From Thalassospira profundimaris (GTDB taxonomy: Bacteria > Pseudomonadota > Alphaproteobacteria > Rhodospirillales > Thalassospiraceae): 64,000 nucleotides of DNA. The position numbers were made by a program, and so were the translations under genes. The notes beneath the pieces are model-generated. The model ran no database searches, was not told the origin of the DNA, and saw only the letters and a program-made list of their open reading frames with translations. The DNA lies in contig NZ_JPWF01000002.1 in the NCBI RefSeq assembly GCF_003326675.1, positions 1 through 64,000 on the forward strand. Direction: 5' to 3'. The first letter of the stretch is position 1. Every line of letters begins with the position of its first letter. Positions 10,342 to 26,782 of this stretch are shown here, piece by piece.

Positions 10342-10373
10342 GTGCCTGCACGCAAAGCACCACAAATGAAAAC

Positions 10374-10433: not shown

Positions 10434-11903
10434 TCAGCCCGCCTTTGCCAACCGTTCCAGAACGGCTTCGATATTGCGGTTAAGGTCGGTTGCCTCGGAC
10501 CCAAGATGATCCGCACTGCCCAGCAATTCGGTCGCTGTTGCCCCGGTCTCTTCAGAAATCTGGGACAATTGATGGATCAAATCGGACAGATCACGGGTCG
10601 CTTCAACGGTCACGCCAAGGCTGTGTGCAATTTCGCGGGTTGCACTTTGTTGCTGTTCCATGGTCGATGAAATGGTCGCGGCAACCTCAACCATATCCCC
10701 GATGGTTTCCGATACCCCTTTGACCGCCGAAACAGAATCCCCAGTTGCCGCCTGGATTTCCGAAATCTGCTGGGCGATCTCGTCCGTCGCACGTGCAGTC
10801 TGGTTCGCAAGGTTTTTGACCTCGTTGGCAACAACCGCAAACCCCTTACCGGCTTCGCCTGCACGGGCGGCTTCGATGGTTGCGTTCAGCGCCAGAAGGT
10901 TGGTCTGGGATGCAATATCCGTGATCAGATTGACGACTTCGCCAATCTTCTCGGCCGCATTCGACAACCATTCAATGCGTTCACTTGCCGTGGTCGAACG
11001 ATCGACGGCATTGTTGGTAATTTCGCGTGCACGTCCAATCTGGCGCGAGATTTCCTCGGCCGATGCATTGATCTCGTCAACGGCGGATGCTGCTGATTCA
11101 ACGTTCTGCGATGTTTCCTCGGATGCGTGAACGGCCCCTTTGGATGCATCACGACCAACACGGGCACGATCATTCATAAGCTGCGCACGTTTCTGAAGCT
11201 GGACCGATTCATCATCGACCGCGCCTGCGGATTTACCAATCAGGGTCGTAATCTGTTCGGCCAGCTCGCGCTTATACTGTTCGCGCTCGATCTGGCGCTG
11301 TTTGCGCAGATGCTCGTTCTGTTCCAGCAATTCTTCTGCCTTGGTCGCAGCCGTTACCGCTTCGTTACGTGCAGTTTCGGCATTGGCCAGGGTCGAATAC
11401 AGGCTTTTGCACGACCAGATCAGAACGCCGGCTTCGACAATCACCACCACCGCATGCAAAACCACCCGCCAGAACTGTCCACCTTCCGGGAATACCCAGT
11501 AAGGTACGGCAAAGTTCAGGATCAGGTGATGAAGGGCAATAACGCCGGTCACGACAACAATCGTCTTCCAGCACACCAGCGCGCCGAGCACGGCCAGGGC
11601 TGCAAAGAAGTACATATGAATGTCGATCTGCCAATGATGGCCGCGGAATGCATAGACCAGCACCCCGACCTGCAAGATCATCGCAGACGACACAATAAAG
11701 CGTGAAATCTGGGCCTGTTCACCAGCCATGCGATATACCGCAAAGGCAATCACTGCGAACACAGCACTGGCAACAAGCGGCGACAGGGCGTCATTGCTTG
11801 CGAAATAGCCTGCAATCCCGCTGAGCGGAATGTGCAGAGCCAAAATAACAAACAATGTCTTGAGCGCGCTGGCCCGAATTTCAAGTAACTTTTCCATAGA
11901 CAT
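10434..11903 (-). CDS. Methyl-accepting chemotaxis protein
   Basis: Membrane chemoreceptor that signals to CheA/CheW. The first 180 residues hold about six hydrophobic segments (for example [19 protein letters not shown] and [13 protein letters not shown]) and no large periplasmic domain, so it probably senses within the membrane. A coiled coil follows, then the methyl-accepting signalling domain with the hairpin-tip sequence [20 protein letters not shown] and [17 protein letters not shown]. The start is uncertain: the ATG at 11903 gives 489 residues, a second ATG lies two codons later, and a TTG at 11918 overlaps the stop of the upstream small membrane gene. The two genes are probably co-transcribed. 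Confidence 0.92.
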
Positions 11904-13159: not shown

Positions 13160-13504
13160 TTAATCCTCGATTCTGTGCGCGAAAGTTACCCCGATTGAAA
13201 CAATATTACAGCGGGGCAAGTTGCAGGCAATAATATATTCCGACAAATAATGCAATCTTGCGCTTGGATGCCGTAACTGAAAATGCAGTAAAATCCGCTT
13301 TTTGGCCGGTTTTGACGCCTGCAATCCGCGACTTGCCCCGGTCTGTCAATGCGATAACAAAATTACCGTGTGGCTTCGTACAATTTCACCATTCAAAAAA
13401 CGCGATATTGCCCATTCAAACTTTGCGTCAAGCGGTTGCGTCTTGTCCGGTCTGCCCATATGTTCGACTGCACATTTTATCAATCTCGGACATATACAAA
13501 GAAC
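13160..13504. promoter_or_regulatory. Divergent lrp/trxB region with a candidate Lrp-type operator
   Basis: This 345-bp gap contains no gene. TTGCA (13221-13225) and TGCAA (13251-13255) form an inverted repeat around an AT-rich centre (AATAATATATT) close to the lrp start, the kind of long imperfect palindrome Lrp/AsnC proteins often bind. No strong promoter consensus is visible for trxB. Confidence 0.35.
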
Positions 13505-14455
13505 ATGGCCCAGGAACATCAAACCAAAGTCCTTATCATCGGCTCCGGCCCTGCCGGCTACACTGCGGCGATCTATGCTGCACGCGCCAACCTTGAACCC
13601 ATGATGGTTATGGGTCTTCAGCCGGGCGGTCAGTTGACGATCACCACCGATGTTGAAAACTTCCCGGGCTTTGCCGATGTCATTCAGGGTCCGTGGCTGA
13701 TGGACCAGATGAAGGCACAGGCCGAACATGTCGGCACCAAGATGGTGCATGACCTGATCACCGAGGTCGATTTCTCCAAACGCCCGTTCGTCTGCAAGGG
13801 CGACTCCGGCGATACCTATATTGCCGAAACCGTGATCATCTCGACCGGTGCGCAGGCGCGCTGGCTTGGTCTTCCGGGCGAAGAAAAATTCAATGGCCGT
13901 GGCGTTTCGGCATGTGCGACCTGTGACGGCTTCTTCTATCGCAACAAGCCAGTAACGGTTGTTGGTGGCGGCAATACCGCTGTTGAAGAAGCCCTGTATC
14001 TTGCCGGCATCTGCTCGAAAGTCACCCTGATCCATCGTCGTGATGAACTGCGCGCCGAGAAAATGTTGCAGGAACGCCTTCTCAAACACGAAAAGATCGA
14101 TGTGGTTTGGGACAGTGTTGTTGATGACATTCTGGGCGGCGATGGCCCGATGGATGGCGTCGAGGCCGTGCGTGTCCGCAACGTCAAAACCGACGAAGTC
14201 ACTGATATTCCGGCTGACGGCTTCTTTGTTGCCATCGGTCACGATCCGGCAACCGCCATCTTCAAAGGCCAGGTTGATATGGATGACGAAAACTATGTTC
14301 TGGTCAAACCGGGCAGCACCGTCACTAATATTCCGGGCGTGTTCGCTGCTGGCGACGTCACCGACAAGGTTTACCGTCAGGCCGTGACGGCCGCTGGCAT
14401 GGGCTGCATGGCCGCCCTTGAAGCTGAAAAGTTCATTGCCGAACACGAAGCCTGA
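13505..14455 (+). CDS. trxB: Thioredoxin reductase
   Basis: NADPH-dependent flavoprotein that reduces thioredoxin. The 316-residue protein has an N-terminal FAD-binding GxGxxG (IIGSGPAGYTAAIYAARAN), the redox-active CATC (ACATCDGFFYR), an NADPH-binding fold (VTVVGGGNTAVEEALYLAGI then LIHRRDELRAEK) and the C-terminal FAD motif GVFAAGDVTDKVYRQAVTA. The ATG at 13505 is chosen because MAQEHQTKVLIIGSGPAGYT starts the conserved domain. No clear Shine-Dalgarno is visible. Confidence 0.97.
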   Translation: MAQEHQTKVLIIGSGPAGYTAAIYAARANLEPMMVMGLQPGGQLTITTDVENFPGFADVIQGPWLMDQMKAQAEHVGTKMVHDLITEVDFSKRPFVCKGDSGDTYIAETVIISTGAQARWLGLPGEEKFNGRGVSACATCDGFFYRNKPVTVVGGGNTAVEEALYLAGICSKVTLIHRRDELRAEKMLQERLLKHEKIDVVWDSVVDDILGGDGPMDGVEAVRVRNVKTDEVTDIPADGFFVAIGHDPATAIFKGQVDMDDENYVLVKPGSTVTNIPGVFAAGDVTDKVYRQAVTAAGMGCMAALEAEKFIAEHEA

Positions 14456-14509
14456 TCAGAAAGATCAACCGGGGCCAAAACAGGCATAAACCGGTCCGAA
14501 ACATATTCA

Positions 14510-14537
14510 GGGGATGCATTTTTGCATCCCCTTTTTT
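14510..14537 (+). terminator. Intrinsic terminator of trxB
   Basis: GGGGATGCA (14510-14518) and TGCATCCCC (14523-14531) form a perfect 9-bp stem around a short T loop, followed by TTTTTT. Confidence 0.9.
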
Positions 14538-14650
14538 AATGCTTCCAGATCACCGTGATCATGCCAATTACCTGACATTTCACAAGAAACACGCATCTGC
14601 GAAATCAATATTTGGGAAAATGCCTGCTTGCAGAAAAAGCTACAGGCCTC

Positions 14651-14680
14651 ATATTGGTTATTTGGGACTCCACCCAATCA
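14651..14680. promoter_or_regulatory. Nested inverted repeats upstream of the LysR gene
   Basis: Within the 348-bp trxB-LysR gap, which has no gene, TTGGG (14662-14666) and CCCAA (14673-14677) form an inverted repeat with a 6-bp spacer, nested with ATTGG/CCAAT. It lies about 125 bp before the LysR start and may be its operator; this is low-certainty pattern evidence. Confidence 0.3.
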
Positions 14681-14803
14681 TGCGGCAGGGTCGTTTGTGT
14701 GAGGCGCTTAACAGTGTTGAAACCAAATTACCCCTAAAAGAAGAGAAGTATTATCAGGGGACTGGCGCAGAAACGTGCGGCAGTGACATCTAGGAGCGGG
14801 TCT

Positions 14804-15736
14804 ATGGACTGGGACAAGCTGCGTGTATTTCACGCTGTTGCGGAAGCCGGGAGCTTCACTCACGCAGGGGAAAACCTTAATCTGAGCCAATCGGCCGTAA
14901 GTCGGCAGATCAGTGCGCTTGAAGAAAGTGTCAAAGTTCCGCTGTTTCACCGCCATGCACGCGGTCTTATCCTGACCGAACAGGGTGAACTTCTGTATCG
15001 CACCGCCCATGATGTCTTTGCCAAACTTTCCATGGCCGAGGCCCGCATTCGGGAATCCAAGGAACGCCCAAGCGGCCCGCTGAAAGTCACCACCACGGTT
15101 GCCTTTGGTTCAACCTGGCTGACCCCGCGCATCAATGACTTCCTTGAACGTTATCCCGAAATCGAATTGTCGCTGGTTCTCAATGACGAGGAACTCGATC
15201 TTGCCATGCGCGAGGCCGATGTCGCCATTCGTATGCAGCCGCCCCGTCAGGCCGATCTCGTACAGCGTCAGTTGATGACACTGCGCTATCACGTCTTCGC
15301 ATCGCCGGAATATATCAAGCAGTACGGCATGCCCAAGACACCGGAAGACCTCAAAGATCACCGACTGATCATCTATGGGGCAGATGCCCGTCCGCCGGTA
15401 TCAAACGTCAACTGGATGATGGCCACCGCTCAGCAGTTCCGACCGGACATGCGCCCGATTTTGAAGCTGAACAATATTTACGGCATCTTCCGTGCGACCG
15501 AGTCCGGGCTTGGTATTTCGGCTCTGCCAGATTACCTGTTGCCAACCAACAGCAATCTGGTGCGCATCCTGCCGGAACTCGAAGGGCCAAGCTTCGATGC
15601 CTATTTCGTCTATCCGGAAGAACTGCGCCATTCAAAGCGCATCGCGGTATTCCGTGACTTCCTGATCGAAGAAATTGCCAAGGTAAAGTCAAAGGCTGCT
15701 GCGGCGGCGACTGGCGCCCCTGCGGCCGAAAAGTAA
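14804..15736 (+). CDS. LysR family transcriptional regulator
   Basis: A 310-residue regulator with an N-terminal helix-turn-helix (LRVFHAVAEAGSFTHAGENL, then NLSQSAVSRQISALEES) and a C-terminal substrate-binding domain of the periplasmic-binding fold (GPLKVTTTVAFGSTWLTPRI). The ATG at 14804 is supported by a strong AGGAG seven bases upstream. The C-terminus is alanine-rich (KSKAAAAATGAPAAEK). It lies alone between two terminators, downstream of trxB; its targets and inducer are unknown. Confidence 0.94.
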   Translation: MDWDKLRVFHAVAEAGSFTHAGENLNLSQSAVSRQISALEESVKVPLFHRHARGLILTEQGELLYRTAHDVFAKLSMAEARIRESKERPSGPLKVTTTVAFGSTWLTPRINDFLERYPEIELSLVLNDEELDLAMREADVAIRMQPPRQADLVQRQLMTLRYHVFASPEYIKQYGMPKTPEDLKDHRLIIYGADARPPVSNVNWMMATAQQFRPDMRPILKLNNIYGIFRATESGLGISALPDYLLPTNSNLVRILPELEGPSFDAYFVYPEELRHSKRIAVFRDFLIEEIAKVKSKAAAAATGAPAAEK

Positions 15737-15766
15737 TCCTGCCTCGAAAGAGATGTTTTGATTTTA

Positions 15767-15794
15767 ACGGCCCGGTTTCATCCGGGCCGTTTTG
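15767..15794 (+). terminator. Intrinsic terminator of the LysR gene
   Basis: ACGGCCCGG (15767-15775) and CCGGGCCGT (15782-15790) form a perfect stem with a 6-nt loop and a following TTTT. Confidence 0.85.
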
Positions 15795-16214
15795 CATTGC
15801 GACTCATGCATATACCATCTCCTCCCGGTCTTACGGGGGAGACGCATAACAAAGAATCGGCCCACCACCGCACATACTCCCCCGCCCGGATATCCCGGAC
15901 ACCGTTTAACACTGTGCAGCAAAGCAATCTCCTTCTCGATGCACCACACACTTTGTCGTGCATTAAAATGCGCCAGCGCAACCAAACGGCACCAAGAACC
16001 CGCCTCGCCGCCAGCCCAATCCAAAGTTTCATGCAAAAATGCTTACCCAATGGTCGGCCAAGACCATCCAATAGACGGAAAATGCGATGCGCCTGACGCA
16101 CGTCTCGTCATAATTCCTTAAAATTACTGACATTTTTCCGCCATGCATTAAGTGCATGGTTGGTCTGAGGTTATTCTATTTTAAATTAAAGATAAGCATC
16201 CGTATATTTGCATC
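15795..16214. other. Gene-free stretch before the tandem RNAs
   Basis: No gene is supported. The short open frames here have no homology-like features or ribosome sites. A GTCT...AGAC inverted repeat with a G-rich (minus strand C-rich) loop near 15828-15844 resembles the core hairpin of the RNAs described further on, but no terminator follows it. The last 60 bases are AT-rich and could hold the promoter of the RNA at 16215. Confidence 0.4.
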
Positions 16215-16393
16215 ATAAGTTGTGAGCAGACGCGAAAGCGAGATCGCTTCAACTTCCCTGATCTCCGCATGATCCGTCCGCCGGAACGAAATCCGGCACA
16301 GGAATCTTCCCCAAGATTCCCTACGTCTCCCAGACGTAAGCCTCCCTGTTGATCTTTGCCGGTAGCGCCCCCCTGCTACCGGCATTTTTTTTT
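16215..16393 (+). ncRNA. Structured RNA A with C-rich hairpin loops
   Basis: There is no open frame, but successive perfect hairpins are visible. They are AAGCG/CGCTT; GCCGGA/TCCGGC (16280-16297); GGAATCTT-CCCC-AAGATTCC (16301-16320); and ACGTCT-CCC-AGACGT (16323-16337). A single-stranded AAGCCTCCCTG follows, then a terminator stem GCCGGTAGC/GCTACCGGC (16358-16383) and a run of nine T. The CCCC, CCC and CCUCCC segments could pair with Shine-Dalgarno sequences, as in C-loop regulatory RNAs. It shares its last two stems and the linker with RNA B 370 bp downstream. The 5' end is estimated from structure. I do not recognise a named family. Confidence 0.6.
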
Positions 16394-16589
16394 GTGCTTG
16401 TGCACAATGAACAATCTTCAGATCTGCCCAATCCACAAGCAAGTGAAACGGCTCACATCTAAAAAATCATTCATTTTCAATGCATTAACAGATGATTAGC
16501 AGCAGCCCAACATTTATGCAGATTTTGCATGGCTGAAAGAGCAATTTGGCAGTGGTCTTTCCCGGCAAAAACGCTATCTTCCTCTTCGA

Positions 16590-16762
16590 ACCGCAGCGGT
16601 ACACACCGCACCGCGGTACAGAGTTTTCTCCCTGACCGAATTTCGGTCTTAGCCGGACGCCCTGTCCGGCTTACCCAGGGCCCTGCGAAGGGTCCTACGT
16701 CTCCCAGACGTGAAGCCTCCCTGATAAACTTGCCGGATACTCTATGTATCCGGCTTTTTTTT
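16590..16762 (+). ncRNA. Structured RNA B, paralogue of A and host of the integration site
   Basis: Hairpins in order: GCGGT/ACCGC; GACCGA/TCGGTC; GCCGGAC/GTCCGGC (16652-16670); GGGCCCT-GCGA-AGGGTCC; and ACGTCT-CCC-AGACGT (16697-16711). Then come GAAGCCTCCCTGATAAACTT and a terminator GCCGGATAC/GTATCCGGC (16732-16754) with eight T. From ACGTCT onward it closely matches RNA A. The 36 bases 16701-16736 recur exactly at 22226-22261, so everything 3' of the crossover, including this terminator, was probably brought in by the integrative element, which restores a full-length RNA. The 5' end is estimated. Confidence 0.6.
16701..16736 (+). repeat. attL: 36-bp direct repeat
   Basis: Starts CTCCCAGACGT and ends CTTGCCGG, within RNA B. 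It is identical to 22226-22261 over all 36 bases; the flanks diverge sharply on both sides, as expected of a site-specific crossover core. Confidence 0.85.
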
Positions 16763-16779
16763 GCCTTGTTTCCACCTCT

Positions 16780-16805
16780 GGGGACTATCTGGGGACTAAT
16801 TTGCA
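16780..16805 (+). repeat. Left arm-type repeat of the element
   Basis: Two tandem copies of GGGGACTA separated by TCT, then ATTTGCA. The same 26 bases recur at 22075-22100 with one difference. Repeats of this GGGGAC type near P4-family integrase att sites are probable arm-binding sites for the recombinase. Confidence 0.6.
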
Positions 16806-17000
16806 GAAACTCGGCATGGTTTCCGAGGCAATCACACAGGCCGCTTAACGCCACGCTGGCAATTGTCCCACGCCCTCACATACGATGTCGGAAAATTCTT
16901 CCTGCCCGGATTCTTGCGCCTTTTTTACGGCTAAGGAAAATTGGGCAATAAAACCTACCAGACACTCTAGGTTAGGCAACAAATAGCTTTTGCTCGTAAG

Positions 17001-17363
17001 CTATTTACTCAATTGATCAATTTTCTCGATGCTGATGTAAACCCGCGACCCTCTAATTTCGACGGTTCCACGACCTGAGATGGTGCACAGTTCAGAGTAG
17101 GACACTATGAAGCTAGGATTATCGCACTCTGCCTCAATTCGCTCCCGGTCATCTCTTCCAGCATCGACCGTAACTCCGAATGGATCGCGATTATTGTCAT
17201 AGAACGTAAACTCCCGCTCTCGGCTATCGTACTTGATCCGACCTGAAAACTGCACCGCTGTCCTATCCATCGTCAATAGATAATCAGTTAACGAAACTGG
17301 TTCCGCCAATGCAGGCGAGATATCAATCAGAAGGACAATCACTAGATAGATGAGCTTTTGCAT
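17001..17363 (-). CDS. Small exported protein, function unknown
   Basis: A 120-residue protein with a clear signal peptide (MQKLIYLVIVLLIDISPALA, cleavage after ALA). The mature part of about 100 residues is mostly beta-prone and polar (FSGRIKYDSREREFTFYDNN) and contains two cysteines (AECDN and SELCTIS) that could form a disulfide in the periplasm. No family is recognised. It is the last gene before the left end of the element, on the same strand as the rest of the element's genes, and 91 bp downstream of the lipoprotein gene, so it is probably cargo. Confidence 0.7.
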   Translation of the reverse strand: MQKLIYLVIVLLIDISPALAEPVSLTDYLLTMDRTAVQFSGRIKYDSREREFTFYDNNRDPFGVTVDAGRDDRERIEAECDNPSFIVSYSELCTISGRGTVEIRGSRVYISIEKIDQLSK

Positions 17364-17454
17364 GTCACCTCTCTGCTCGCCGGGAAATTTAGTATTCGAC
17401 TTATTTTAGCTGCTTACCAACGGCTATGGATTAACGCCCTCGCAACAGATAGTC

Positions 17455-18162
17455 TCATTTTGTTTTGGGTTTTATCTCGTAGGAAAAGTCGTCTCGGAAA
17501 TGCTTTAAAACCTTAAACTTGATGGTTCTATTGTCGTAATCCAGAACCTCAATGCGAGCGCCCTTGTAACCAATGATATTGGACTCCCCCATATCGTACT
17601 CGACATCATTGGTAAATGCGTCTCTGGCAAGCCCGTCATTGAATTCCCGATATGATATGTTGATCTTTTTTCCAACCGAACCACTGTAAATCAAGGTTTG
17701 TTGAACACTCTGATTATCTCTTGCAGATAGCTCCTCAACTCTCATCTGTCCGTCATAGCAAGATGCAGACTGATAGGAGACAGAGGTAACGCATACTTCG
17801 TTGTCTTTTTTGGTGTGCAAGGCAATTGGAGGGTCGATAAAGCCCGGAAGGTAAACAACACTCTGACCTTTGGTGTTGGTGGTAGAGAAATACGGATTAC
17901 CTTTGTAGTCACCTATCCGAATATAAGACCCCGGCGGAATATCGTATGCAACCCCGTCGATCAGGTGAGATAACGTAAGAAATTCCGTCGTTACTCGCCT
18001 GCCTTGGTTAAGCATGTAGTCCCCAACAGAAGCCTCTTGTACTTCGTTAATGGCTGGCTCGGAAAACAGTTCTGTCTTGCCGCTGTAATTGTAGTTAATG
18101 GAGGAACACGCCGACACAGCAGAAAGCAACACGAAGAGGCTTAACAGTTTCGCGATTTTCAT
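17455..18162 (-). CDS. Lipoprotein of unknown function (element cargo)
   Basis: A 235-residue protein with a lipoprotein signal: MKIAKLLSLFVLLSAVSACSS, with the lipobox cysteine at 19. The mature region is beta-rich and polar; VAYDIPPGSYIRIGDYKGNP and YSGSVGKKINISYREFND are visible, with two more cysteines (NEVCVTS and ASCYDG). It probably sits at the inner face of the outer membrane or on the periplasmic side. I do not recognise the family. An AT-rich 585-bp region upstream separates it from the regulatory genes, so it likely has its own promoter. Confidence 0.75.
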   Translation of the reverse strand: MKIAKLLSLFVLLSAVSACSSINYNYSGKTELFSEPAINEVQEASVGDYMLNQGRRVTTEFLTLSHLIDGVAYDIPPGSYIRIGDYKGNPYFSTTNTKGQSVVYLPGFIDPPIALHTKKDNEVCVTSVSYQSASCYDGQMRVEELSARDNQSVQQTLIYSGSVGKKINISYREFNDGLARDAFTNDVEYDMGESNIIGYKGARIEVLDYDNRTIKFKVLKHFRDDFSYEIKPKTK

Positions 18163-18747
18163 TTTGTTCCCCTTTTTATCGCTACCGGAAATTCATCTGA
18201 CAGAAGCGCACAGCAATATCTTTCAACATTGTTCAACAGCATATCGCGTAGAAGCTGCATGACAACAAACTAATACCCGAATTTCCATCTGGCTGGGCAA
18301 TGTTCGATTTCTGAGCCGCCAGAAAACCTATTTTCCTCTCGCGTAACGATGTCAGAAAAATCTTGAGGCCCGGATTGTTGCCCTTTTTTTTTACGGATAC
18401 GAAAAACTCGCCCGCAAACCGGATAGCCGCCCTTTTTTCGGTTTCACGAAATTATCCGCAAAGCCCTCTTGTTCGCATGTGACTATGGAAAAATCTTCCC
18501 CCGCCATTTCACCGCTTCTAAAAATTCCAACAATCGGACCAACGGTCTTCTCGCGATACCGTTTCTAAAAATTCGGTGCGTCCCCACATGGTAAACTATA
18601 TGTGTCGCAAAAGTTGATACCGTCAAAGCAGCGGTTTTTGTGGTTTCGGTATTAAAAATTAAGACCGTAAGGGCCTATTTGCCGGGGAAGATAATACAGC
18701 CGGTCTCAACAGGTGAGACCGACAGTATTAAGATCTGATACCGGGTT
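18163..18747. other. Gene-free region of the element with short repeats
   Basis: No gene is supported in these 585 bases. The segment 18345-18415 (CGATGTCAGAAAAATCTT, CCCGGATTGTTG, then a T-run and ACGG) imperfectly repeats 16875-16945 near the left end. CCG[C/T]TTCTAAAAATTC occurs twice (about 18510 and 18561). GGTCTCA/TGAGACC forms a 7-bp hairpin at 18702-18720. Such clustered repeats could be regulatory or iteron-like, but nothing here proves an origin. Confidence 0.4.
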
Positions 18748-19143
18748 TTAATTTTCCGGTCTCCATCTGGCATATTCTTTGGTTGGCAATTCATCCCCCA
18801 ATGGCTGATTGGTCAGAATCCATGTTGTCGCATGACGGGTTTTGCGCGTGAATGTGCCTTTGACTGCTACCTTGATCCAGCCAAGCCGTTGCAATTCCCA
18901 AATCGCCTTGTTTGCCGTGTTATCGGCACATCCCAGACGACTGCCAAGTTCCCGGACGGAAAAACTGATTTCGCCATTATTTCGACCATCATATCGGCGA
19001 CGAAACTCCATTAATGACGCTTTGCCCAGTAAGGACATTTCCCGATAGGCAGGGCAGTCCATTTCGAAATGCTCCAGCTTCACAAAACGGCTTTGCTGAT
19101 TGCGCCCATTTGGCAAAAGCTTGTTGCGTTTCCTGTTACCCAT
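18748..19143 (-). CDS. Winged-helix DNA-binding protein of mobile elements
   Basis: A 131-residue basic protein. The N-terminal MGNRKRNKLLPNGRN and the later SVRELGSRLGCADNTANKAI, which looks like a helix-turn-helix, resemble small replication- or regulation-associated proteins of alphaproteobacterial integrative elements; that family match is from memory of the pattern. The ATG at 19143 is chosen because AGGAGG lies eight bases upstream; longer in-frame starts reach 19206. It directly follows another small DNA-binding gene and is part of the int-to-left-end gene series. A role in element replication or control is inferred. Confidence 0.7.
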   Translation of the reverse strand: MGNRKRNKLLPNGRNQQSRFVKLEHFEMDCPAYREMSLLGKASLMEFRRRYDGRNNGEISFSVRELGSRLGCADNTANKAIWELQRLGWIKVAVKGTFTRKTRHATTWILTNQPLGDELPTKEYARWRPEN

Positions 19144-19206
19144 TCTGCCACCCTCCTGCATGACCGGAAAGGTGGCGGGGGCAATTACGCCCCCACCGCC
19201 AGACAT

Positions 19207-19488
19207 TCATTCTACGACCTCGATACGGGATTTTAGGACATAACGCGCATGTGTGCCGGGATAAGGGCCACCGTGCGGCTCATTCACCGTCTCGATATCA
19301 AGACCGTATTCGGTCCGAAGGGTAAATATATATGCTGACCAGCGGGGGCCAGGATTATCTATTGGCGTAACCCCGCGCTTTCCAGCCCTTAGCAATTCCG
19401 CAAGTGCCCACGCCACCCGGCCATTGGCAACACGCGCCCAGCCTGCACCGGGCAAGAGAAAACGCATTGTTTGCTTTGGATGTTTCAT
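19207..19488 (-). CDS. Small winged-helix-like protein of the element
   Basis: A 93-residue protein (MKHPKQTMRFLLPGAGWARV) with a central helix-turn-helix-like portion (ALAELLRAGKRGVTPID, followed by AYIFTLRTEYGLDIETVNEP), a pattern seen in small winged-helix proteins carried by integrative elements. A strong GGAGGG precedes the ATG at 19488. Its stop codon is next to an in-frame ATG of the following gene, so the two are probably one transcript. The function is unproven. Confidence 0.65.
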   Translation of the reverse strand: MKHPKQTMRFLLPGAGWARVANGRVAWALAELLRAGKRGVTPIDNPGPRWSAYIFTLRTEYGLDIETVNEPHGGPYPGTHARYVLKSRIEVVE

Positions 19489-19639
19489 TTCACACCCTCC
19501 AGCATTGCCCCGGCTATATCCGCCAGCGGAAACAGGAATTGTGCAAACGGGTAAGCTGCGTTACAGTAATCCCGTCTAATAATTGAAAGACCCTTAGCCC
19601 GGACATCGCCTCCCCGCGATGCCGGGCTTTTCCATACAA

Positions 19640-19825
19640 TCAGCATCCGTTGCCCTCCTGATTTTCAAGGAGGCCTGCAAGCGCAAGTGCTGATTTCCGG
19701 GTTACAAGAGTCCTACGGCCAATCTTAACCTTTTCCAATTGCCCGGATTGAAGCAATCCGTACACCGTAGTTCTGCCAATAGACAGAAGTCGGCAGCAAT
19801 CTGGAATTGAGTACAGCAATGTCAT
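19640..19825 (-). CDS. Excisionase/AlpA-like helix-turn-helix protein
   Basis: A 61-residue MerR-fold protein: SIPDCCRLLSIGRTTVYGLL is the helix-turn-helix, and KVKIGRRTLVTRKSALA is the wing typical of the DNA-binding domain of the excisionase/AlpA family. GAGGTG precedes the ATG. It lies two genes from the integrase, where recombination directionality factors usually sit. It probably controls excision or the element's promoter. Confidence 0.8.
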   Translation of the reverse strand: MTLLYSIPDCCRLLSIGRTTVYGLLQSGQLEKVKIGRRTLVTRKSALALAGLLENQEGNGC

Positions 19826-19922
19826 TTAGTCACCTCTTGTTTTGCTGCGCACAATTGCAACAACACAAGCATGTTGGCGGACTAAAATCGCCTAAACCAG
19901 TCAGGGAAATAGGGGAAATAGA

Positions 19923-20753
19923 TTATTCTTCCGGGGAAATAGATTCAGCAGGCATTTTCCCTGATTTAATTCTGGCATCCTTACGCAGTTTGCGGAGGTA
20001 ATCTCTCCCAATGGTGTCAGCTTTTGGGATGTTCGAAATTCCACTTTTTTCCAAAAGATCAAACACGGCAGCAGAAGCAGCATCTTCACTCATATCCGTG
20101 TCAATTTTCCCCGCCAGTGCGCAGATTGCAATTGCCTTGTACATTTCATCTTTTGGAATGTTGGGTTTTCGTCCCGGTTTTTTGCGCTCTTCTTTTTCTT
20201 CTGTAACCGTTGTGCATTGATAGATATCGTTCTCGGCACTGACACAATCTCTATGAACGCGGCTACTGATCGGAAACAGTGCAATAACAGCATCTGTTTT
20301 GAACTGGACATGCCCATACCAACCGCAAAAACCAAAATTTACTCTGCTGTATGGTTGCTGATAGTTCCACCCTTCGAACAACTCCCAAAATGTTTGGTCA
20401 ATATCAATCAAGTCTTTTTCTGAAGGCCCCCACTCACCGTCACATGCAATGTCGGCATCATCTAATCCACGTGCGCCCAGCCTTCCCATAACAAGCGCTT
20501 TTTTCAATTCTGCTTCTTCATCGTAGAACATTTTGAAAGATGCCAATTCAGGAATCGGACCCGCTTTTTCTTCCCGACAGGCAAGAACATCATCATAAAG
20601 AAACATGTCTTCCAACGCTGGCGTTTTTAGAGGCGGCAACCCAAAAGCAATCCAGCGCAAGGCCTCATATATATTCATTGTCGGCTTAATAAAATTCTCT
20701 GCACTGGTTTCGTCGTAAAGAAAATTACTACCAGCTTGCGTATCATTCGTCAT
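19923..20753 (-). CDS. Unknown protein next to the integrase
   Basis: A 276-residue protein I do not recognise. It is acidic in the first 170 residues, with several aromatic stretches (TFWELFEGWNYQQPYSRVNF, then FCGWYGHVQF). A basic patch EERKKPGRKPNIPKDE near residue 190 resembles an AT-hook-like or linker sequence, and a C-terminal helical part ends in DTIGRDYLRKLRKDAR. There is no signal peptide or membrane segment. The ATG at 20753 has GGGA seven bases upstream and follows the integrase stop by 12 bp, so it is probably translated from the int transcript. A DNA-binding role is a guess from the basic patch. Confidence 0.7.
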   Translation of the reverse strand: MTNDTQAGSNFLYDETSAENFIKPTMNIYEALRWIAFGLPPLKTPALEDMFLYDDVLACREEKAGPIPELASFKMFYDEEAELKKALVMGRLGARGLDDADIACDGEWGPSEKDLIDIDQTFWELFEGWNYQQPYSRVNFGFCGWYGHVQFKTDAVIALFPISSRVHRDCVSAENDIYQCTTVTEEKEERKKPGRKPNIPKDEMYKAIAICALAGKIDTDMSEDAASAAVFDLLEKSGISNIPKADTIGRDYLRKLRKDARIKSGKMPAESISPEE

Positions 20754-20765
20754 TTGATGTCCCAA

Positions 20766-22049
20766 TCAAACACTTGCCCCAGAACGTAACGGCACAACAT
20801 TGTCCGATCCGCCCTCAAGCATCATCGACAGCCGATCCGCCCACCGCTGCAAGGCATCGCGTTTTTCCGGCCAGTATTCATGGGTGTTATAGGTGCCTTC
20901 CAGTGACGGGGTGGCATGGTTCAACACCCGTTCGGCCACCTCTCTTGATACTCCCAGAATGGCAAAATTTGTCCGCACCGTCCGGCGGATGTCGTGAAAC
21001 ACCCAGCCGGTCACACCGCTTTCGCGGTCTATGATTTCCTTAAGCCGCCGGGTTCCGGCATAGGGCTTTTGCCCGTTGGAAGTAAAGACCGGGGCGGTGG
21101 GGGCATCGGACAGGCGCGGCAAGTCTGCCAGAAGGTTTTCAAACAGGCCGGAAACCGGCACGATATGGTCACGCTTGGATTTATTGCGTTCGCCGGGGAT
21201 AACCCATGCCATACCGCCCGCCGCTTGCGCCCCGTCACGGCATCCTGCAAGTGCGGCGTGGCGGATTTCGTCCCATGTCATGCACCGGACTTCATCGCGG
21301 CGCTGCCCGGTCAGAATAAGCGTTTTCAGATAAGGCCCGGACGGATAGGGCAATTTGTCCGCCGCCTTCCAGATTGCAATCAGTTCGGCGTCCGAAAGGG
21401 TGCGGTTGCGCGGCTTTTCAATCTTGCGCCGTTTCACCGCCGCCGCCGGGTTGGCATCAAGATATTCCCGTTCAATCGCCCAGTTGAACGCGGCAATCAG
21501 ATTGCTACGTACCCGGTTCACTTGCGCGGTAAAGCCCTTGTCATTCTGCAAATGGTCCAGAAGGGCGACAATATCGGCACGGCGCAAATCCGAAAGCGGC
21601 AATCGCCCGATTACCGGGTAAACATGATTTTCAAACATGCGTTCGGTTTCCAGCCATTTGCGCTGGTTTTGCTTGCAATAGGCATCGACATAGCGGCGCA
21701 AGAGGGACTCGACCGTCTGGGGGCGCTTGGCGGCTTGCTCGGCCTCTGCCCGCTGGCGGGCCTCCTTATCGGGCAGGTCGGTGCCTTCTTTGGCGTTTGC
21801 GGTGATTTCCGCCGCCTTTTTCCGGGCACTGGCAAGGGTCATGCCGATTTTGGGGTCTGCCTGCACATAACGGCCCAATGTGACGCGCTTTTGCTTTCCG
21901 GCAATGGAATAACGCACCGCCCACGAACAGGCCCCGTCATTCGACATTCGGAATACCAGCCCCGCCCCGGAATCGTCGGTGACTTCCAGACGCCCGTTAG
22001 GCGGTGGTTTCAGGGTCGCAAGGAAACGGTCGGTAAGGCGCTTTCGCAT
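20766..22049 (-). CDS. int: P4-type tyrosine recombinase (integrase)
   Basis: Site-specific recombinase that inserts and excises the element. The 427 residues begin with a DUF4102-like N-terminal domain (LTDRFLATLKPPPNGRLEVT, RYSIAGKQKRVTLGRY), then a core-binding helical domain (about 110-205), then the catalytic domain. Catalytic residues visible are Arg250 (LTGQRRDEV), His352-x-x-Arg355 (FHDIRRT), His378 (LNHA) and nucleophile Tyr387 (GTYNTH). All are intact, so the enzyme should be active. It reads away from attR at 22226-22261, with the arm-type repeat 22075-22100 just before its start. Confidence 0.95.
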   Translation of the reverse strand: MRKRLTDRFLATLKPPPNGRLEVTDDSGAGLVFRMSNDGACSWAVRYSIAGKQKRVTLGRYVQADPKIGMTLASARKKAAEITANAKEGTDLPDKEARQRAEAEQAAKRPQTVESLLRRYVDAYCKQNQRKWLETERMFENHVYPVIGRLPLSDLRRADIVALLDHLQNDKGFTAQVNRVRSNLIAAFNWAIEREYLDANPAAAVKRRKIEKPRNRTLSDAELIAIWKAADKLPYPSGPYLKTLILTGQRRDEVRCMTWDEIRHAALAGCRDGAQAAGGMAWVIPGERNKSKRDHIVPVSGLFENLLADLPRLSDAPTAPVFTSNGQKPYAGTRRLKEIIDRESGVTGWVFHDIRRTVRTNFAILGVSREVAERVLNHATPSLEGTYNTHEYWPEKRDALQRWADRLSMMLEGGSDNVVPLRSGASV

Positions 22050-22074
22050 GGCCGGTCTCTCCTGCCCCGTTTCC

Positions 22075-22100
22075 GGGGACTAGCTGGGGACTAATTTGCA
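22075..22100 (+). repeat. Right arm-type repeat of the element
   Basis: Same 26 bases as 16780-16805 apart from one T/G difference: two GGGGACTA units followed by ATTTGCA. It lies immediately upstream of the integrase gene and has the same orientation as the left copy. Confidence 0.6.
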
Positions 22101-22225
22101 TCCGTTTCGCGGCAATTGCATACAATTTCCGGCGAACAACAACGAACACTAAGGCCATGATATATTTATTTAAAACCGAACAAAAGCGAATTTTGACGTG
22201 AAGCCTCGAACGCTATGTTTCATCA

Positions 22226-22261
22226 CTCCCAGACGTGAAGCCTCCCTGATAAACTTGCCGG
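22226..22261 (+). repeat. attR: 36-bp direct repeat
   Basis: Perfect copy of 16701-16736. The bases 5' of it (CATCA) do not supply the ACGT arm that pairs with AGACGT in RNAs A and B, so this copy lacks the 5' half of the core hairpin. Confidence 0.85.
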
Positions 22262-22287
22262 GCACATTTGTTGCCCGGCTTTTTTTT
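22226..22287 (+). pseudogene. Displaced 3' end of the split small RNA gene (fragment C)
   Basis: Contains AGACGTGAAGCCTCCCTG, the linker and an intact terminator GCCGGGCA/TGCCCGGC (22257-22279) with eight T residues. The upstream stems of RNAs A and B are absent. The simplest reading is that it was the original chromosomal 3' end of RNA B before integration. It is unclear whether it is still transcribed. Confidence 0.6.
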
Positions 22288-22464
22288 CGCTTTTCCCATC
22301 TCTGATCGCACTCTGACCGTACACAGATGCAGACCATCGGGCAGACATGTATACTTGTTCGATGCTGGCATAGTTGACGATGCATGATCCTGCGTCCCCC
22401 GCCTTTGGCGTTTTCCGTTGGTCAAGCAGGTTCAATCCGCACCATAACCGGGAAACTGCAGATC

Positions 22465-23877
22465 ATGAGAAGCACCCTCGGCGCATTCCTGTTTGGCAAC
22501 AAAGCACAAAACCATCTGCCCGAACGGGTGCAAGCTGCAATCGACCAACAACAACATGACAGCGAAAAACTGATTGGCTGGATACAGCTCTTGCTCGTCA
22601 CGATTTTTGCCAGTCTCTATGCCATTTCCCCCAGTACATCCCTAAGCGACGCGATAAAACCCGTGCCATGGGCCCTGGGACTTTATTACCTGTTCACGCT
22701 CAAACGTCTTGCGCTGGCCTATCGCAATGCACTGACCGATTGGTTCCTGACATTGTCAGTGATCGCCGATATCGGTCTGCTGCTTGTCTTGATCTGGAGT
22801 TTCCATATCCAGTACATGCAACCGGCAAGCTTCTATCTCAAAGCCCCGACCATGATGTATGTCTTCATCTTCATTGCGTTACGCAGTTTGCGCTTTGATC
22901 CTCGCTATATCCTCATTGCCGGGGCCACAGCCGCGCTGGGATGGCTGGTTCTTGCGTCTTACGCCATCTGGAGCGAAGGCGGGAAAAGCATGATCACCCG
23001 CGATTACGTGACATATCTGACCTCCAACGCGATTCTGATCGGGGCCGAGATCGACAAGATCATTGCAATCGTTCTGGTAACACTGGTCCTTGCCATTGCA
23101 GTCATGCGGGCCAAACGATCCTTTATTCGGGCCGTCACCGACGAAATTGCGGCACGCGATCTGTCACGCTTTGTTTCGCCGGAAATTGCCAACCGCATCA
23201 CCCATGCCGAACAACAGATTAAACCCGGCGACGGTGATGCGGTGATCGCCACGGTAATGTTCACCGACATCGAAGGGTTCTCGTCAATTGCCGAAACGCT
23301 GACGCCCAAAGAACTGGCCACCATGCTTAACGAGTATTTTACGGAAACCAACGCGGTGATCTCGCGGTTTGGCGGCGTCATTACCCAATACCAAGGCGAT
23401 GGTATGCTGATAACCTTTAATGCTGTGACACCTGATACCGATCATGCACTGAGTGCGGTGCGCACCGCACTGGCCATTCAGGATGTCTCGGAGAACCGCA
23501 TTTACGGGTTCGGAGGAAAACTTAAAACCCGTTGCGGGATCAATACTGGTGAAATCATGACCGGCGCAGTCGGCTCGGAGAATCGCCTGACATTGACGGT
23601 GCATGGCGACAACGTCAATATTGCCGCCCGACTGGAAACCATGAACAAGCAATTTAACAGCTATATTCTGGCATCAGAGGCGACCGTAAAGGCGTGCGGC
23701 CATCATTACGATATCCCCGACTGGATATCACGAGGCGAAGTCACGGTACGCGGGCGACAATCTGCGACACCGGTTTTCGGCATAACCAGAAACCGGAACG
23801 GTTCCGACCACCCCGACAAAAGCATCGACCAGGACCTTGCGGCGGGAACGACAATCGCCCGCAATTTCAACGAATAG
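22465..23877 (+). CDS. Membrane-anchored class III adenylate/guanylate cyclase
   Basis: Makes a cyclic nucleotide, probably cAMP, from the NTP. The N-terminal half of the 470-residue protein has about five or six membrane segments (IQLLLVTIFASLYA, LYYLFTLKRLALAY, TLSVIADIGLLLVLIWSF, YVFIFIALRSLRF and later ones). A linker (LSRFVSPEIANRI) leads to the catalytic domain, with metal-binding Asp in VMFTDIEGFSSIAE and in QYQGDGMLITF, and CGINTGEIMTGAVGSENRLT, HGDNVNIAARLE near the active site. The ATG at 22465 is favoured; one at 22384 is possible. Substrate cannot be fixed by eye. It is an isolated gene between the integrative element and two small RNAs. Confidence 0.9.
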   Translation: MRSTLGAFLFGNKAQNHLPERVQAAIDQQQHDSEKLIGWIQLLLVTIFASLYAISPSTSLSDAIKPVPWALGLYYLFTLKRLALAYRNALTDWFLTLSVIADIGLLLVLIWSFHIQYMQPASFYLKAPTMMYVFIFIALRSLRFDPRYILIAGATAALGWLVLASYAIWSEGGKSMITRDYVTYLTSNAILIGAEIDKIIAIVLVTLVLAIAVMRAKRSFIRAVTDEIAARDLSRFVSPEIANRITHAEQQIKPGDGDAVIATVMFTDIEGFSSIAETLTPKELATMLNEYFTETNAVISRFGGVITQYQGDGMLITFNAVTPDTDHALSAVRTALAIQDVSENRIYGFGGKLKTRCGINTGEIMTGAVGSENRLTLTVHGDNVNIAARLETMNKQFNSYILASEATVKACGHHYDIPDWISRGEVTVRGRQSATPVFGITRNRNGSDHPDKSIDQDLAAGTTIARNFNE

Positions 23878-23917
23878 ACATTCCGCGCCAATCGGCAGGA
23901 ATACCATGACCGGCGGA

Positions 23918-24085
23918 CAAAAAAAGACCCGGGGAGCTATAAGCTCGCCCGGGATCTTGGGGACAGATGGTCTTGGGGAGACCGATCGGAAGCGCTGCCT
24001 TGCCCGTGGGGTTTGAACGTAACGGGGGAGAAAACGTTCAATCGGGCCCCGATGCGTCGTGAGGGAGTACACTGCATCGATGTTT
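23918..24085 (-). ncRNA. Structured RNA D with three C-rich hairpin loops
   Basis: Read on the minus strand, in order: CGATGC/GCATCG around a loop containing CTCCC (24050-24079); TTGAACGT/ACGTTCAA around a loop with TCTCCCCC (24013-24041); GGTCT-CCCCA-AGACC (23969-23983); and a GC-rich terminator CCCGGG...CCCGGG with GAGC/GCTC at its tip (23928-23953), followed by TC and seven T. The GGTCT hairpin and two flanking bases are identical (17 nt) to RNA E. There is no open frame. The architecture matches RNAs A and B on the other strand. The 5' end is estimated; no named family is recognised. Confidence 0.65.
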
Positions 24086-24194
24086 TCGCTTCCGACAATT
24101 AGGAATATGCCATGTAAATAGGGCTTAAAAAGCTGTCGTTAATGACCATTTGCGGGCGAATTGGGGCAAATACGGCACCCCGACAATGCTGCAC

Positions 24195-24345
24195 GCAAAA
24201 AAAAGGGGCGGGTTAAACCCGCCCCAACATATTCGGGGTCATTATGGTCTTGGGGAGACCTGTCAGTCGCGGCATTCCAGGTGGGGGAACAAACCTGAAA
24301 ACAATCGGCTCAGTCTTGTGAGGGGGGACAGATTGGACTGGCCAT
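24195..24345 (-). ncRNA. Structured RNA E, paralogue of D
   Basis: On the minus strand: CAATC/GATTG around a loop containing CCCCCC (24302-24335); CAGGT/ACCTG around a loop with CCCCC (24278-24297); GGTCT-CCCCA-AGACC (24246-24260); then a perfect terminator stem GGGGCGGG/CCCGCCCC (24205-24225) with eight T residues. Every upstream loop exposes a C-run able to pair with purine-rich ribosome sites. The shared 17-nt core with D indicates duplication or strong selection on this hairpin. Confidence 0.65.
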
Positions 24346-24721
24346 TTCCTCGACTGACAAGAATGAAATTTGCCGAAGAACAAGGCGGGAAAACAGGCCT
24401 GATTGGGCCATTTCGGGGCGAATTATGTTCAAATCAGGGCACATTCACCCCAACCCCTTGATACTATTGATAGCAACCATGATCTATTGATGGGATGCAT
24501 TGCCAACAGCGACAGCACAAACTGTTTCGCGCCTGTCGCTGGTCCCGTGAATTGGCTTTGGGCTTACGTACCCCGCGCGCATCCTGTCGCAGAATAACGC
24601 CCCGGACAAAACCGGGCCTTCGAAACGTCCAGACCGGCGGCAAACGCCGCAACAGCGTGGAACCGAAGGCAGATTTACTCGGCTCCATGGGATAACGGTC
24701 TTCTTGTGCAAGGAGATGCCA

Positions 24722-26782
24722 ATGCCCGGCACTGCCCGTTCAACATCCTCGTCCGCCCCCCATCCGCCGCGTGTGGCCGCCCTGATTGGTCCCTATTCCA
24801 GCGGCAAGACATCCCTGCTTGAAAGCCTGCTTCTTGCCACCGGGCGCATCCATCGCAAAGGATCCATCCGCGATCACAATACCGTCGGGGATAACAATCC
24901 CCAATCGCGCGCCCGCGAAATGAGCACCGAACTCACATCGGTTCAAACAACCTATCTCGGCGAAGAATGGCATTTCATTGATTGCCCCGGCTCTGTCGAC
25001 TTTGCCCAGGACGCCCGCGAAGCCGCAATGATCTGCGATGTCGCGATTGTGGTGGTGGATTGTGATCCGACGCGGGTCATGACCGTTGCGCCAATCCTTA
25101 AATTTCTCGATCGCAACCGCATCCCTCATCTGATTTTCATCAACAAGACCGATCATGCCGGTATCAGTCTGCGGAACAATATTGATGCCCTGCAATCGAT
25201 CTCGGAACGGCCCTTGATCCTGCGCGAAATTCCCATCCGCGACGGCGACGGGCATGATGCTGCGATTACCGGCTTTGTCGATATTGTCTCGGAACGCGCC
25301 TATCAATATCTGGAAGGTCAGCCGTCCAAACTGATTACGATGCCATCAAGCCTGTCCAACCGCGAAGGCGAAGCCCGCGAGGGACTGCTTGAAACCCTTG
25401 CCGATTTTGACGATGCCCTTCTTGAACAAATCCTCGAAGATCAGGCACCGGCGGCCGACACGATATATGACAATCTCGAACAGGATTTGGCCAAGGACCT
25501 GATCGTTCCCGTTTTCTTTGGCTCGGCCGAACAGGATCACGGGATTGTCCGTTTGCTCAAAGCCCTGCGGCACGAAGCCCCGACATCGGACGTTTGCGCC
25601 CATCGCTTGGGCATTGAACCCGATGGCAGCCAATCTGTGCTGCAAATTTTTAAAACCGTCCATCTGTCACATGCTGGACGGTTTTGTTTTGCCCGTGTTT
25701 TGTCCGGACAGATCAAAAATGGCGATGCCTTTGGCCCTGACAAGGTTTCGAGCCTCTGCACCCTCATTGCCGACAAACATGAAAAACTCGATCTTGGTGT
25801 CACCGGCGCGGTTGTCGGTCTGCCACGGGTGGAAAAATTGCGCACCGGCACCCTGATCGGCACCGATGGCCAGATTGACAGTTTGTGGCCCGATCCCCTG
25901 CCCCCGCTTTATCAAACCGGGCTTGAAGTCACCAAACCCGGCGATGACGTCAAACTCAGCGAAGCACTTCGTCACCTTTGCGAACAGGACCGTTCCCTGA
26001 CCTTCGGGCATCATGAAAGCACCGGCCAACTTGTCCTGTCCGGACAGGGCGACATTCATCTGCAATGTGCGCTGGCCCATCTTCATGATCACTATCATCT
26101 GGAAATTGCCACGACCCCGGTTCTGACCGGATATCAGGAAACCATTCGCAAACCATCCGCCGCACGCGGACGCTATAAAAAGCAAACCGGCGGTCACGGA
26201 CAGTTCGGAGATGCCGCCATCGAACTGCGCCCGCAGGGACGCGGGGACGGGTTTGAGTTTTCCGAACATATCGTTGGCGGCGCTATTCCGCGTCAATATA
26301 TCTCGGCTGTTGAAAAAGGTGTGCGCGACGGATTGCGATCCGGCCCGCTTGGCTTTCCGGTGATTGATGTGGCGGTCAAACTGGTTGACGGGTCCTATCA
26401 CACGGTCGACAGTTCCGATCAGGCCTTCCAGATGGCCGGACGCATCGCGATTGGCGATGCACTTAAGGACGCTGGGCCGGTTTTGCTTGAACCGGTTGAT
26501 CAATGCACCGTTTCCATCCCCTCGGACTTCACATCCAAGGCCCAGCGTCTGGTCAGCACACGACGCGGACAAATTCTTGGTTTCAACGCCAAGGATGGCT
26601 GGCAGGGCTGGGATGAAATCGATGTCCAGATACCGACATCGGAAACCGCCGACATGGTCACAGAATTAAGATCACTGACGCAGGGAACAGGTTTCTTCAC
26701 AAGACGTTATTCACACATGCAGGAACTTGCAGGAAAACAGGCCGACAGTGTGGTGGCCCAACACCAGAAATCGGGAAAGTAG
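24722..26782 (+). CDS. Elongation factor G-like GTPase (EF-G paralogue)
   Basis: A translational GTPase of 686 residues with EF-G domain order: G domain, beta-barrel domain II, and domains III-V (HGQFGDAAIELRPQGRGDGF, then GVRDGLRSGPLGFPVIDV). G-domain motifs deviate from EF-G: P-loop GPYSSGKTS instead of AHxDAGKTT, DCPGSVDF instead of DTPGHVDF (the catalytic His position is Ser), and NKTD for NKMD. This fits the stand-alone EF-G-like family rather than canonical FusA; it has no rpsL/rpsG/tuf neighbours. The ATG at 24722 has AAGGAG six bases upstream. Its cellular role is unknown, perhaps non-canonical ribosome handling. Confidence 0.9.
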   Translation: MPGTARSTSSSAPHPPRVAALIGPYSSGKTSLLESLLLATGRIHRKGSIRDHNTVGDNNPQSRAREMSTELTSVQTTYLGEEWHFIDCPGSVDFAQDAREAAMICDVAIVVVDCDPTRVMTVAPILKFLDRNRIPHLIFINKTDHAGISLRNNIDALQSISERPLILREIPIRDGDGHDAAITGFVDIVSERAYQYLEGQPSKLITMPSSLSNREGEAREGLLETLADFDDALLEQILEDQAPAADTIYDNLEQDLAKDLIVPVFFGSAEQDHGIVRLLKALRHEAPTSDVCAHRLGIEPDGSQSVLQIFKTVHLSHAGRFCFARVLSGQIKNGDAFGPDKVSSLCTLIADKHEKLDLGVTGAVVGLPRVEKLRTGTLIGTDGQIDSLWPDPLPPLYQTGLEVTKPGDDVKLSEALRHLCEQDRSLTFGHHESTGQLVLSGQGDIHLQCALAHLHDHYHLEIATTPVLTGYQETIRKPSAARGRYKKQTGGHGQFGDAAIELRPQGRGDGFEFSEHIVGGAIPRQYISAVEKGVRDGLRSGPLGFPVIDVAVKLVDGSYHTVDSSDQAFQMAGRIAIGDALKDAGPVLLEPVDQCTVSIPSDFTSKAQRLVSTRRGQILGFNAKDGWQGWDEIDVQIPTSETADMVTELRSLTQGTGFFTRRYSHMQELAGKQADSVVAQHQKSGK

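Follow-up and report, generated by a model that had tools for sequence, protein, structure and literature searches.

The 64,000-nucleotide stretch of Thalassospira profundimaris DNA analyzed here (contig NZ_JPWF01000002.1, positions 1 to 64,000; hereafter the window) contains two pairs of putative small RNA (sRNA) genes, A and B on the plus strand and D and E on the minus strand, whose predicted folds present runs of C in loops and linkers. The locus reads lysR, A and B, an integrase island, a class III cyclase gene, D and E, and a gene encoding an EF-G-like protein. The lysR gene (14783-15736; LysR regulator), upstream of A, is followed by a terminator-like stem near 15767-15793, and the adenylate/guanylate cyclase gene (22384..23877, plus strand; Pfam Guanylate_cyc, E-value 3e-21) is located between the two sRNA pairs. 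All four sRNAs are intergenic, with lysR, the cyclase gene and the EF-G-like gene as neighbors; the direction of transcription of D and E leads away from the EF-G-like gene, toward the 3' end of the cyclase gene.

sRNA A (16215..16393, 5' end approximate) scores 78.4 bits with R1, the covariance model of A/B. From 5' to 3' it comprises 5' hairpins, a CCCC-loop hairpin, a core hairpin (16323-16337), a CCUCCCUG linker (16341-16348) and a terminator with a CCCCCC loop and U9; its predicted fold includes a short closing stem. sRNA B (16587..16762, 5' end approximate; R1 90.8 bits) is predicted to fold into four hairpins, and has a core hairpin at 16697-16711, the CCUCCCUG linker at 16716-16723 and a terminator derived from the island. 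Thus, A and B have a 3' module in common: a ACGUCUCCCAGACGU hairpin, the linker and a terminator. For D (23919..24096; 71.1 bits with R2, the core model of D/E), the parts are a closing stem P1 (24087-24096 with 23985-23994), P2 with a CUCCCU loop, P3 with a CCCCC loop, a core hairpin (23969-23983), GUCCCC and a terminator. The layout of E (24197..24359; R2 82.8 bits) includes P1 (24351-24359 with 24261-24269), a CCCCCC loop, a CCCCC loop, a core hairpin (24246-24260), GACCCC and a terminator. An earlier reading of the letters alone (the sequence-only reading) had cut D and E short, so that their 5' arms lay outside and the long-range stem P1 was missed. In most D/E copies, the 5' end of the RNA pairs with a segment of approximately 8-11 bases immediately preceding the core hairpin; in a few, only 4-7 such bases are detected.

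Folds were compared with dinucleotide shuffles. With the coordinates of the sequence-only reading, A (z -5.91), B (16590-16762; z -7.83) and D (z -4.76) were equaled by none of 200 shuffles each, whereas E reached -45.9 kcal/mol (z -2.45; 4/200 equal); with corrected ends, E reaches -59.9 kcal/mol and is equaled by none of 150. The proposal of four structured RNAs is therefore borne out, for E after correction of its ends. The same reading was right that C-runs lie in loops or linkers, that all four RNAs end in GC-rich terminators with seven to nine U, that C-loop sRNAs stand in tandem pairs, and that D (23967-23983) and E (24244-24260) have exactly 17 nt in common.

Conservation and distribution of the two pairs

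The D-type alignment (A2) included 39 of 40 distinct copies; L095:2779-2946 was left out, and one L097 copy was trimmed. Two-sided changes were found in nine of the ten P1 pairs, five of the seven P2 pairs and two of three pairs in the inner part of P2. Of the cells expected to pair, 95.8% do so, compared to 28.5-41.1% when the partners are slid. Two-sided changes amount to 127 cells, compared to 42.5 in shuffles, and involve 16 of 25 pairs, compared to 10.2, which agrees with the expectation, set out in the sequence-only reading, of compensatory stem changes among relatives; the count of further pair types was matched in 6 of 500 shuffles. Mean column identity is about 75% in the P1 stem and 100% in both the CUCCCU loop of P2 and the core GGUCUCCCCAAGACC. 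The D-type copies present a clean comparative case, in which stems drift while C-loops stay fixed. In the E-type alignment (A3; all 28 distinct copies, two ends adjusted, pairs tallied by script), the outer five pairs of P1 always pair, the sixth does so in 27/28 rows, and the inner two in 21/28 and 22/28. The D/E core alignment (A4) held 44 of 58 distinct cores. For A/B, the alignment (A1) used 57 of 69 distinct cores, and the terminator stem showed two-sided changes in all eight pairs.

BLAST recovered the D/E region in 29/29 Thalassospira genomes searched and in 0/31 genomes of other families. Across the window and 32 loci from 28 relatives, R2 detected 79 D/E copies, with scores of 62-83 bits. 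When R2 was run on 199 genomes drawn from the order, all matches of at least 62 bits fell in the 23 genomes of the genus, and the next best reached 31.8 bits, in the genome of the window itself; at an E-value of 0.01, R2 matched 81/199 genomes, with scores outside the genus that were weak and at the level of terminators (up to 25.5 bits). The weak match at 31.8 bits (G000:C33:13542) looks like a gene 3' end with a terminator and also scores 28.6 bits with SorX. Counts of copies cover the fetched stretches, not whole genomes: two copies in 22/29 genomes, and tandem arrays of five (G011, G026, G027), six (G020) and seven (G023) copies in five genomes; two assemblies that are split over contigs (G022, G008) have three and four copies. 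The local expansion suggested by the sequence-only reading is evident in these D/E arrays, an sRNA family caught during a rise in copy number from 2 to 7. Each copy has a terminator and an upstream element of its own, with a consensus of roughly gTTTTc..GCC followed by GgCAtaTTc (74 of 76 copies aligned; capitals >90%, small letters >60%).

One array deserves mention: in G027 (C1, ~3332500-3373400; L280, L281), about 40 kb separate two D/E copies, and one D copy has no U-run. A ParB_N protein is encoded at one edge of the gap, the next protein has no Pfam match, and no protein like the integrase of the window was found in the two edge loci. The gap looks like a large insertion within the array.

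The A-B region was matched in 29/29 Thalassospira genomes searched; in several relatives, A has diverged in its 5' part. A and B each have conserved upstream regions of their own, that of B extending over 30 aligned rows. In other families of the order, the 3' module alone was matched in 27/31 genomes (26 at the 3' core of B and 1 at that of A), and R1 had matches in 153/289 genomes drawn across Alphaproteobacteria at an E-value of 0.001. The hairpin and the GCCTCCCTG core were kept in 28/28 other-genus loci fetched from the best R1 matches, and in 2 of 18 weaker loci that were read. The C-loop sRNA module of A/B spans the class and is mostly overlooked by Rfam 15. A locus of another alphaproteobacterium (L246, G226; 645-1246) carries three tandem A/B-model matches within 600 nt, which score 32.8-36.6 bits with SorX, below its cut-off. 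In two Thalassospira genomes (L071 3093-3166, L076 4323-4396), the 3' end of the A gene is of the B type (GTGAAG...ATAAACTTGCCGGGCAC), which suggests gene conversion or an integrase-mediated exchange of 3' ends. A linkage between the cyclase and the sRNAs outside the genus was considered and rejected: at 57 cyclase loci (L151-L207), R1 gave three weak matches (19.6-23.9 bits) and R2 none at an E-value of 0.01.

The A/B core was matched by one plasmid record (Tistrella) and by no phage record. Three IMG/VR viral contigs contain an A/B-type core and terminator away from the contig ends (L288 2917-3000, L289 9876-9947 and L292 1364-1454; 42.7, 64.6 and 52.5 bits), so that phages may encode copies of an A/B-type sRNA. 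In two other viral contigs (L290, L291), the core lies approximately 100 nt from the contig end, as expected of an attachment site.

The sequence-only reading had treated A, B, D and E as a single family. A single family that diverged within the locus would account for the common layout (a GUCU-C-loop-AGAC hairpin, a C-rich linker and a terminator) and for the common neighborhood in the Thalassospira genomes searched. The models, however, separate the pairs: for R1, D (12.1 bits, E-value 0.04) is on a par with an unrelated terminator at 10373 and E gives no listed match, and R2 at an E-value of 1e-5 finds neither A nor B in the window and the 32 genus loci. We therefore regard common descent within the locus as very unlikely. 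By these model comparisons, A/B and D/E are two families.

An integrative element in the 3' end of B

The 36 nt at 16701..16736 (plus strand), inside B, are identical to 22226-22261, at a spacing of 5525 nt, and the approximately 5.5 kb in between (16737..22225) are inserted into the 3' end of B. A tyrosine integrase gene (20766..22049, minus strand; Pfam E-values 7e-14 for Arm-DNA-bind_3, 3e-10 for Phage_int_M and 1e-6 for Phage_integrase) is located 177 nt from the right attachment (att) repeat. Repeats containing TGGGGACTA are found at both ends of the island: 16777..16805, with two CTGGGGACTA, is 93% identical to 22072..22100, with one exact CTGGGGACTA (both plus strand), and these are likely to be integrase arm sites.

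In the nine island-free loci printed, B runs undivided into its terminator, which is GGGCACATTTGTTGCCC in six of the nine. In the window, GGGCACATTTGTTGCCC follows the right repeat, and B now ends in GGATAC...GTATCC, as in G004, its present terminator being formed by the first bases of the island. Insertion has therefore divided the 3' end of B and reconstituted it, and the B gene survives because the island supplies a terminator in place of that of the host. Of the 60 loci searched, which include 32 from 28 relatives in the genus, only L072 (G004, 99.5%) and L079 (G011, 87.8%) match the left end of the island, and the integrases of these two relatives are 96.0% and 97.9% identical. The distance from A/B to D/E is 1.6 kb in G012, compared to 7.1 kb in the window. 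It should be noted, as a point against an empty site, that the right flank (22288-22480, 193 nt) has no match in any relative, so the right junction is not alignable; the case for the empty site consequently rests on the terminators, the absent left end and the distance between the pairs. Judged by these comparisons, 16737..22225 is a site-specific integrative element, with an integrase beside one direct att repeat and an empty site in relatives.

The segment 22226..22287 (plus strand) had been taken for a split RNA copy. It consists of the right 36-nt repeat and the original terminator of B. A decayed RNA copy was considered and rejected: three of the six core-hairpin pairs are lost in the R1 alignment, and the repeat of B is exact. 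The perfect repeat, the lost pairs and the original terminator of B together identify the segment as the far att repeat, that is, an integration scar and not an RNA gene.

A comparable arrangement is found in another family of the class. In G163 (L283), a 10.5-kb element lies between two A/B cores (711-787 and 11260-11333; 79.3 and 80.3 bits), with an integrase that is 37.9% identical beside one of them and an int-alpA RNA match nearby (L231 61-128, 50.9 bits). At least two lineages have thus used the A/B module for integration. Within the island of the window, 16882-16926 and 18346-18390 form a 45-nt repeat of 82% identity, and PADLOC gave one weak match (mad1, E-value 0.005) for the seven island proteins.

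Proposed function and alternatives

For this locus, the gene structure, conservation, D covariation, conservation of D loops over stems, copy number and integration scar are established; expression, the use of Hfq, the targets and the sign of regulation we infer. Related sRNAs offer a guide. In PMC12559287, the Caulobacter alphaR8 sRNA SisA carries UUUCCUCCCU between hairpin and terminator and represses mRNAs through this motif with Hfq; CrfA and SisA antagonize each other, CrfA acting as a sponge whose G/A-rich stem loop binds the SisA-D core. Rhodobacter SorX acts on a spermidine transporter mRNA, according to PMC8625941 and PMC7074977. By analogy with SisA, SorX and SmelA075/099, A/B and D/E should be anti-Shine-Dalgarno regulators, which would fit the pairing with G-rich ribosome sites proposed in the sequence-only reading.

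The best explanation, which we consider probable as a whole, though not strongly so, comprises two parts: A/B would be a widespread alphaproteobacterial sRNA subfamily, the 3' half of which is built like SorX and alphaR8/MmgR/SisA, and D/E a separate family, seen only in Thalassospira and expanding in some species. Both would act in trans, probably with Hfq, and their unpaired C-rich stretches would pair with G-rich ribosome-binding regions of mRNAs and thereby lower translation. In D/E, the covarying multi-branched scaffold would hold about five C-loops open. A bolder version, which we find unlikely, makes D/E a multivalent scaffold with at least five open C-loops and up to seven tandem siblings, which binds many G-rich ribosome sites or titrates a C-loop-binding protein, while the A/B core doubles as a recurrent integrase landing site and a mimic carried by phages.

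Several results weigh against the best explanation. In the core hairpin of A/B, two-sided changes affect three of six pairs, with only four cells in total, and the A/B pair-type control failed, as the count of further pair types was matched in 141/500 shuffles. The D core hairpin is invariant, stem included, so that its pairing is not proven by covariation. In E-type copies, 7 and 6 of the 28 rows, respectively, lack pairing at the two innermost positions of P1, and the automatic alignment misregistered P2. The excess of unpaired CCC runs over shuffles is modest in A and B (14/150 and 8/150 shuffles as high) and absent in E (42/150), compared to a clear excess in D (1/150); the strong evidence for C-loop RNAs is comparative, not compositional. 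Finally, scores with named families are below the Rfam gathering cut-offs. For suhB/mmgR (RF00519, the alphaR8 family; cut-off 41 bits), A scores 23.1 and B 32.7 bits, with the B match spanning the full model; for SorX (RF02784; cut-off 46.6 bits), A scores 32.6 and B 19.6 bits, and here it is the A match that spans the full model.

CsrB titrates CsrA, and the mirror of that arrangement would be RNAs whose C-loops are binding sites for a protein that recognizes C-rich RNA and is titrated by them. The many loops per molecule (a mean of 5.2 unpaired CCC runs in 74 D/E copies) and the tandem expansion of D/E would suit titration, as would the fact that the D core hairpin never varies, even in its stem, a constancy beyond what pairing alone would demand. 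Base pairing by the related alphaR8 sRNA SisA, as described in PMC12559287, argues in the other direction, and we consider protein titration unlikely. The same source, through the binding of the SisA-D core by the stem loop of CrfA, lends some plausibility to a third role, in which the main partner of D/E (or A/B) is another, G-rich sRNA and not an mRNA; the multivalency of D/E would be appropriate for this, and we nevertheless find such a sponge decidedly unlikely. The intergenic positions beside lysR, the cyclase gene and the EF-G-like gene would also be compatible with cis-acting leaders or read-through terminators of these neighbors. Given that D/E run away from the EF-G-like gene and toward the 3' end of the cyclase gene, that each copy has an upstream element and a terminator, and that arrays of five to seven are ill-suited to a leader, this is extremely improbable. 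Trans-acting regulation through the C-rich stretches remains our preferred explanation.

Small-RNA sequencing data for Thalassospira are already public (PMC6413936; PRJNA505357). Of the 86 sequences in table 2 of that paper, 44 were checked against the fetched loci for exact identity, and none of these lies in A, B, D or E. One of its small RNAs (2252 reads, T. australica) maps to L074 298-317, on the opposite strand approximately 420 nt upstream of A, and another maps to L142-L144, far from the four sRNAs.

Comparison with named sRNA families

The Rfam scan of the window gave no family at the gathering score, in line with the earlier remark that the RNAs match no named family; this does not extend to the A/B 3' module, which is close to SorX/alphaR8 and class-wide. 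Rfam 15 models of sRNAs of this kind matched above cut-off at 0 places in the window and in 1, 0 and 3 loci of three sets of 20. Nothing was listed for D, suhB included, and E gave only weak scores, the best with SorY (RF02651; 24.2 bits, cut-off 111); its suhB score is 16.2 bits.

With alphaR8 (RF00519; MmgR of Sinorhizobium, SisA-D of Caulobacter), A/B share a hairpin, a single-stranded CCUCCCU, a terminator, siblings and an alphaproteobacterial spread (PMC12559287). Compared to the alphaR8 10-mer UUUCCUCCCU given there, the layout and CCUCCCU, that is, 7/10 bases, agree, and 3/10 differ (AAG for UUU). alphaR8 is, according to the same text, usually linked to a gene for N-formylglutamate amidohydrolase (FGase), a linkage that the A/B locus lacks: no FGase was found among the 10 window proteins scanned (13370-26782). 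The genome has a separate suhB match above cut-off (C46:236917-236991, 50.8 bits), which roughly 1.8 kb separate from an FGase gene, and such a separate match was found in 25/25 genus genomes of the search; R1 touches the copy of our genome weakly (16 bits, E-value 0.0015). The identity of A/B with alphaR8 itself was thus rejected, given the scores below cut-off and the alphaR8 copy elsewhere in the genome.

SorX and SorY of Rhodobacter have a CCUCCCUGUU-type linker between hairpin and terminator, as do A/B. No SorX match above cut-off was found in 41 genomes, including our own. An order relative with the exact A/B core (L110) scores 52.0 bits with SorX, above its cut-off, and some weaker R1 matches are SorX by Rfam (L248 77.4, L249 70.9 and L256 47.0 bits). 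SorX is produced from the ompR-1 3' untranslated region (UTR) by RNase E (PMC8625941), that is, from an ompR-type mRNA, whereas the gene upstream of A encodes a LysR regulator and is followed by a terminator-like stem, and A and B each have an upstream region that is itself conserved.

Among multi-copy and multi-hairpin sRNAs, CcsR1-4 of Rhodobacter form a sibling set comparable to the multi-copy sRNAs here, and are processed from the ccaF1 3' UTR (both points from PMC8625941), whereas each D/E copy has its own upstream element and terminator. SmelA075 and SmelA099 of Rhizobiales resemble the C-loop RNAs of the window in their several hairpins, fixed anti-Shine-Dalgarno C-loops and variable stems (PMC3927594); none of A, B, D and E contains their loop motif CCUCCUCCC. 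LhrC1-5 of Listeria are multicopy siblings from a different phylum (PMC4132741 and PMC5880928). Neither family is described in the literature covered on Thalassospira, Rhodobacter, Sinorhizobium, Azospirillum (PMC7685610), alphaR8 and LhrC sRNAs and on sRNA genes as integration sites; this coverage did not extend to the alphaR8 surveys that PMC12559287 cites, so that an earlier description of the A/B core is possible.

On the basis of cross-scores rather than a tree, A/B appear to form a separate branch within a larger group of SorX/alphaR8-like sRNAs. We rate A/B as a new branch of a known kind of sRNA, and D/E as a novel form of an established type, the multi-loop anti-Shine-Dalgarno sRNA. 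The UCCC loops of LhrC bind ribosome sites, and the loop motif of CcsR is CCUCCUCCC, as in the SmelA sRNAs, a motif that the four RNAs of this locus do not carry.

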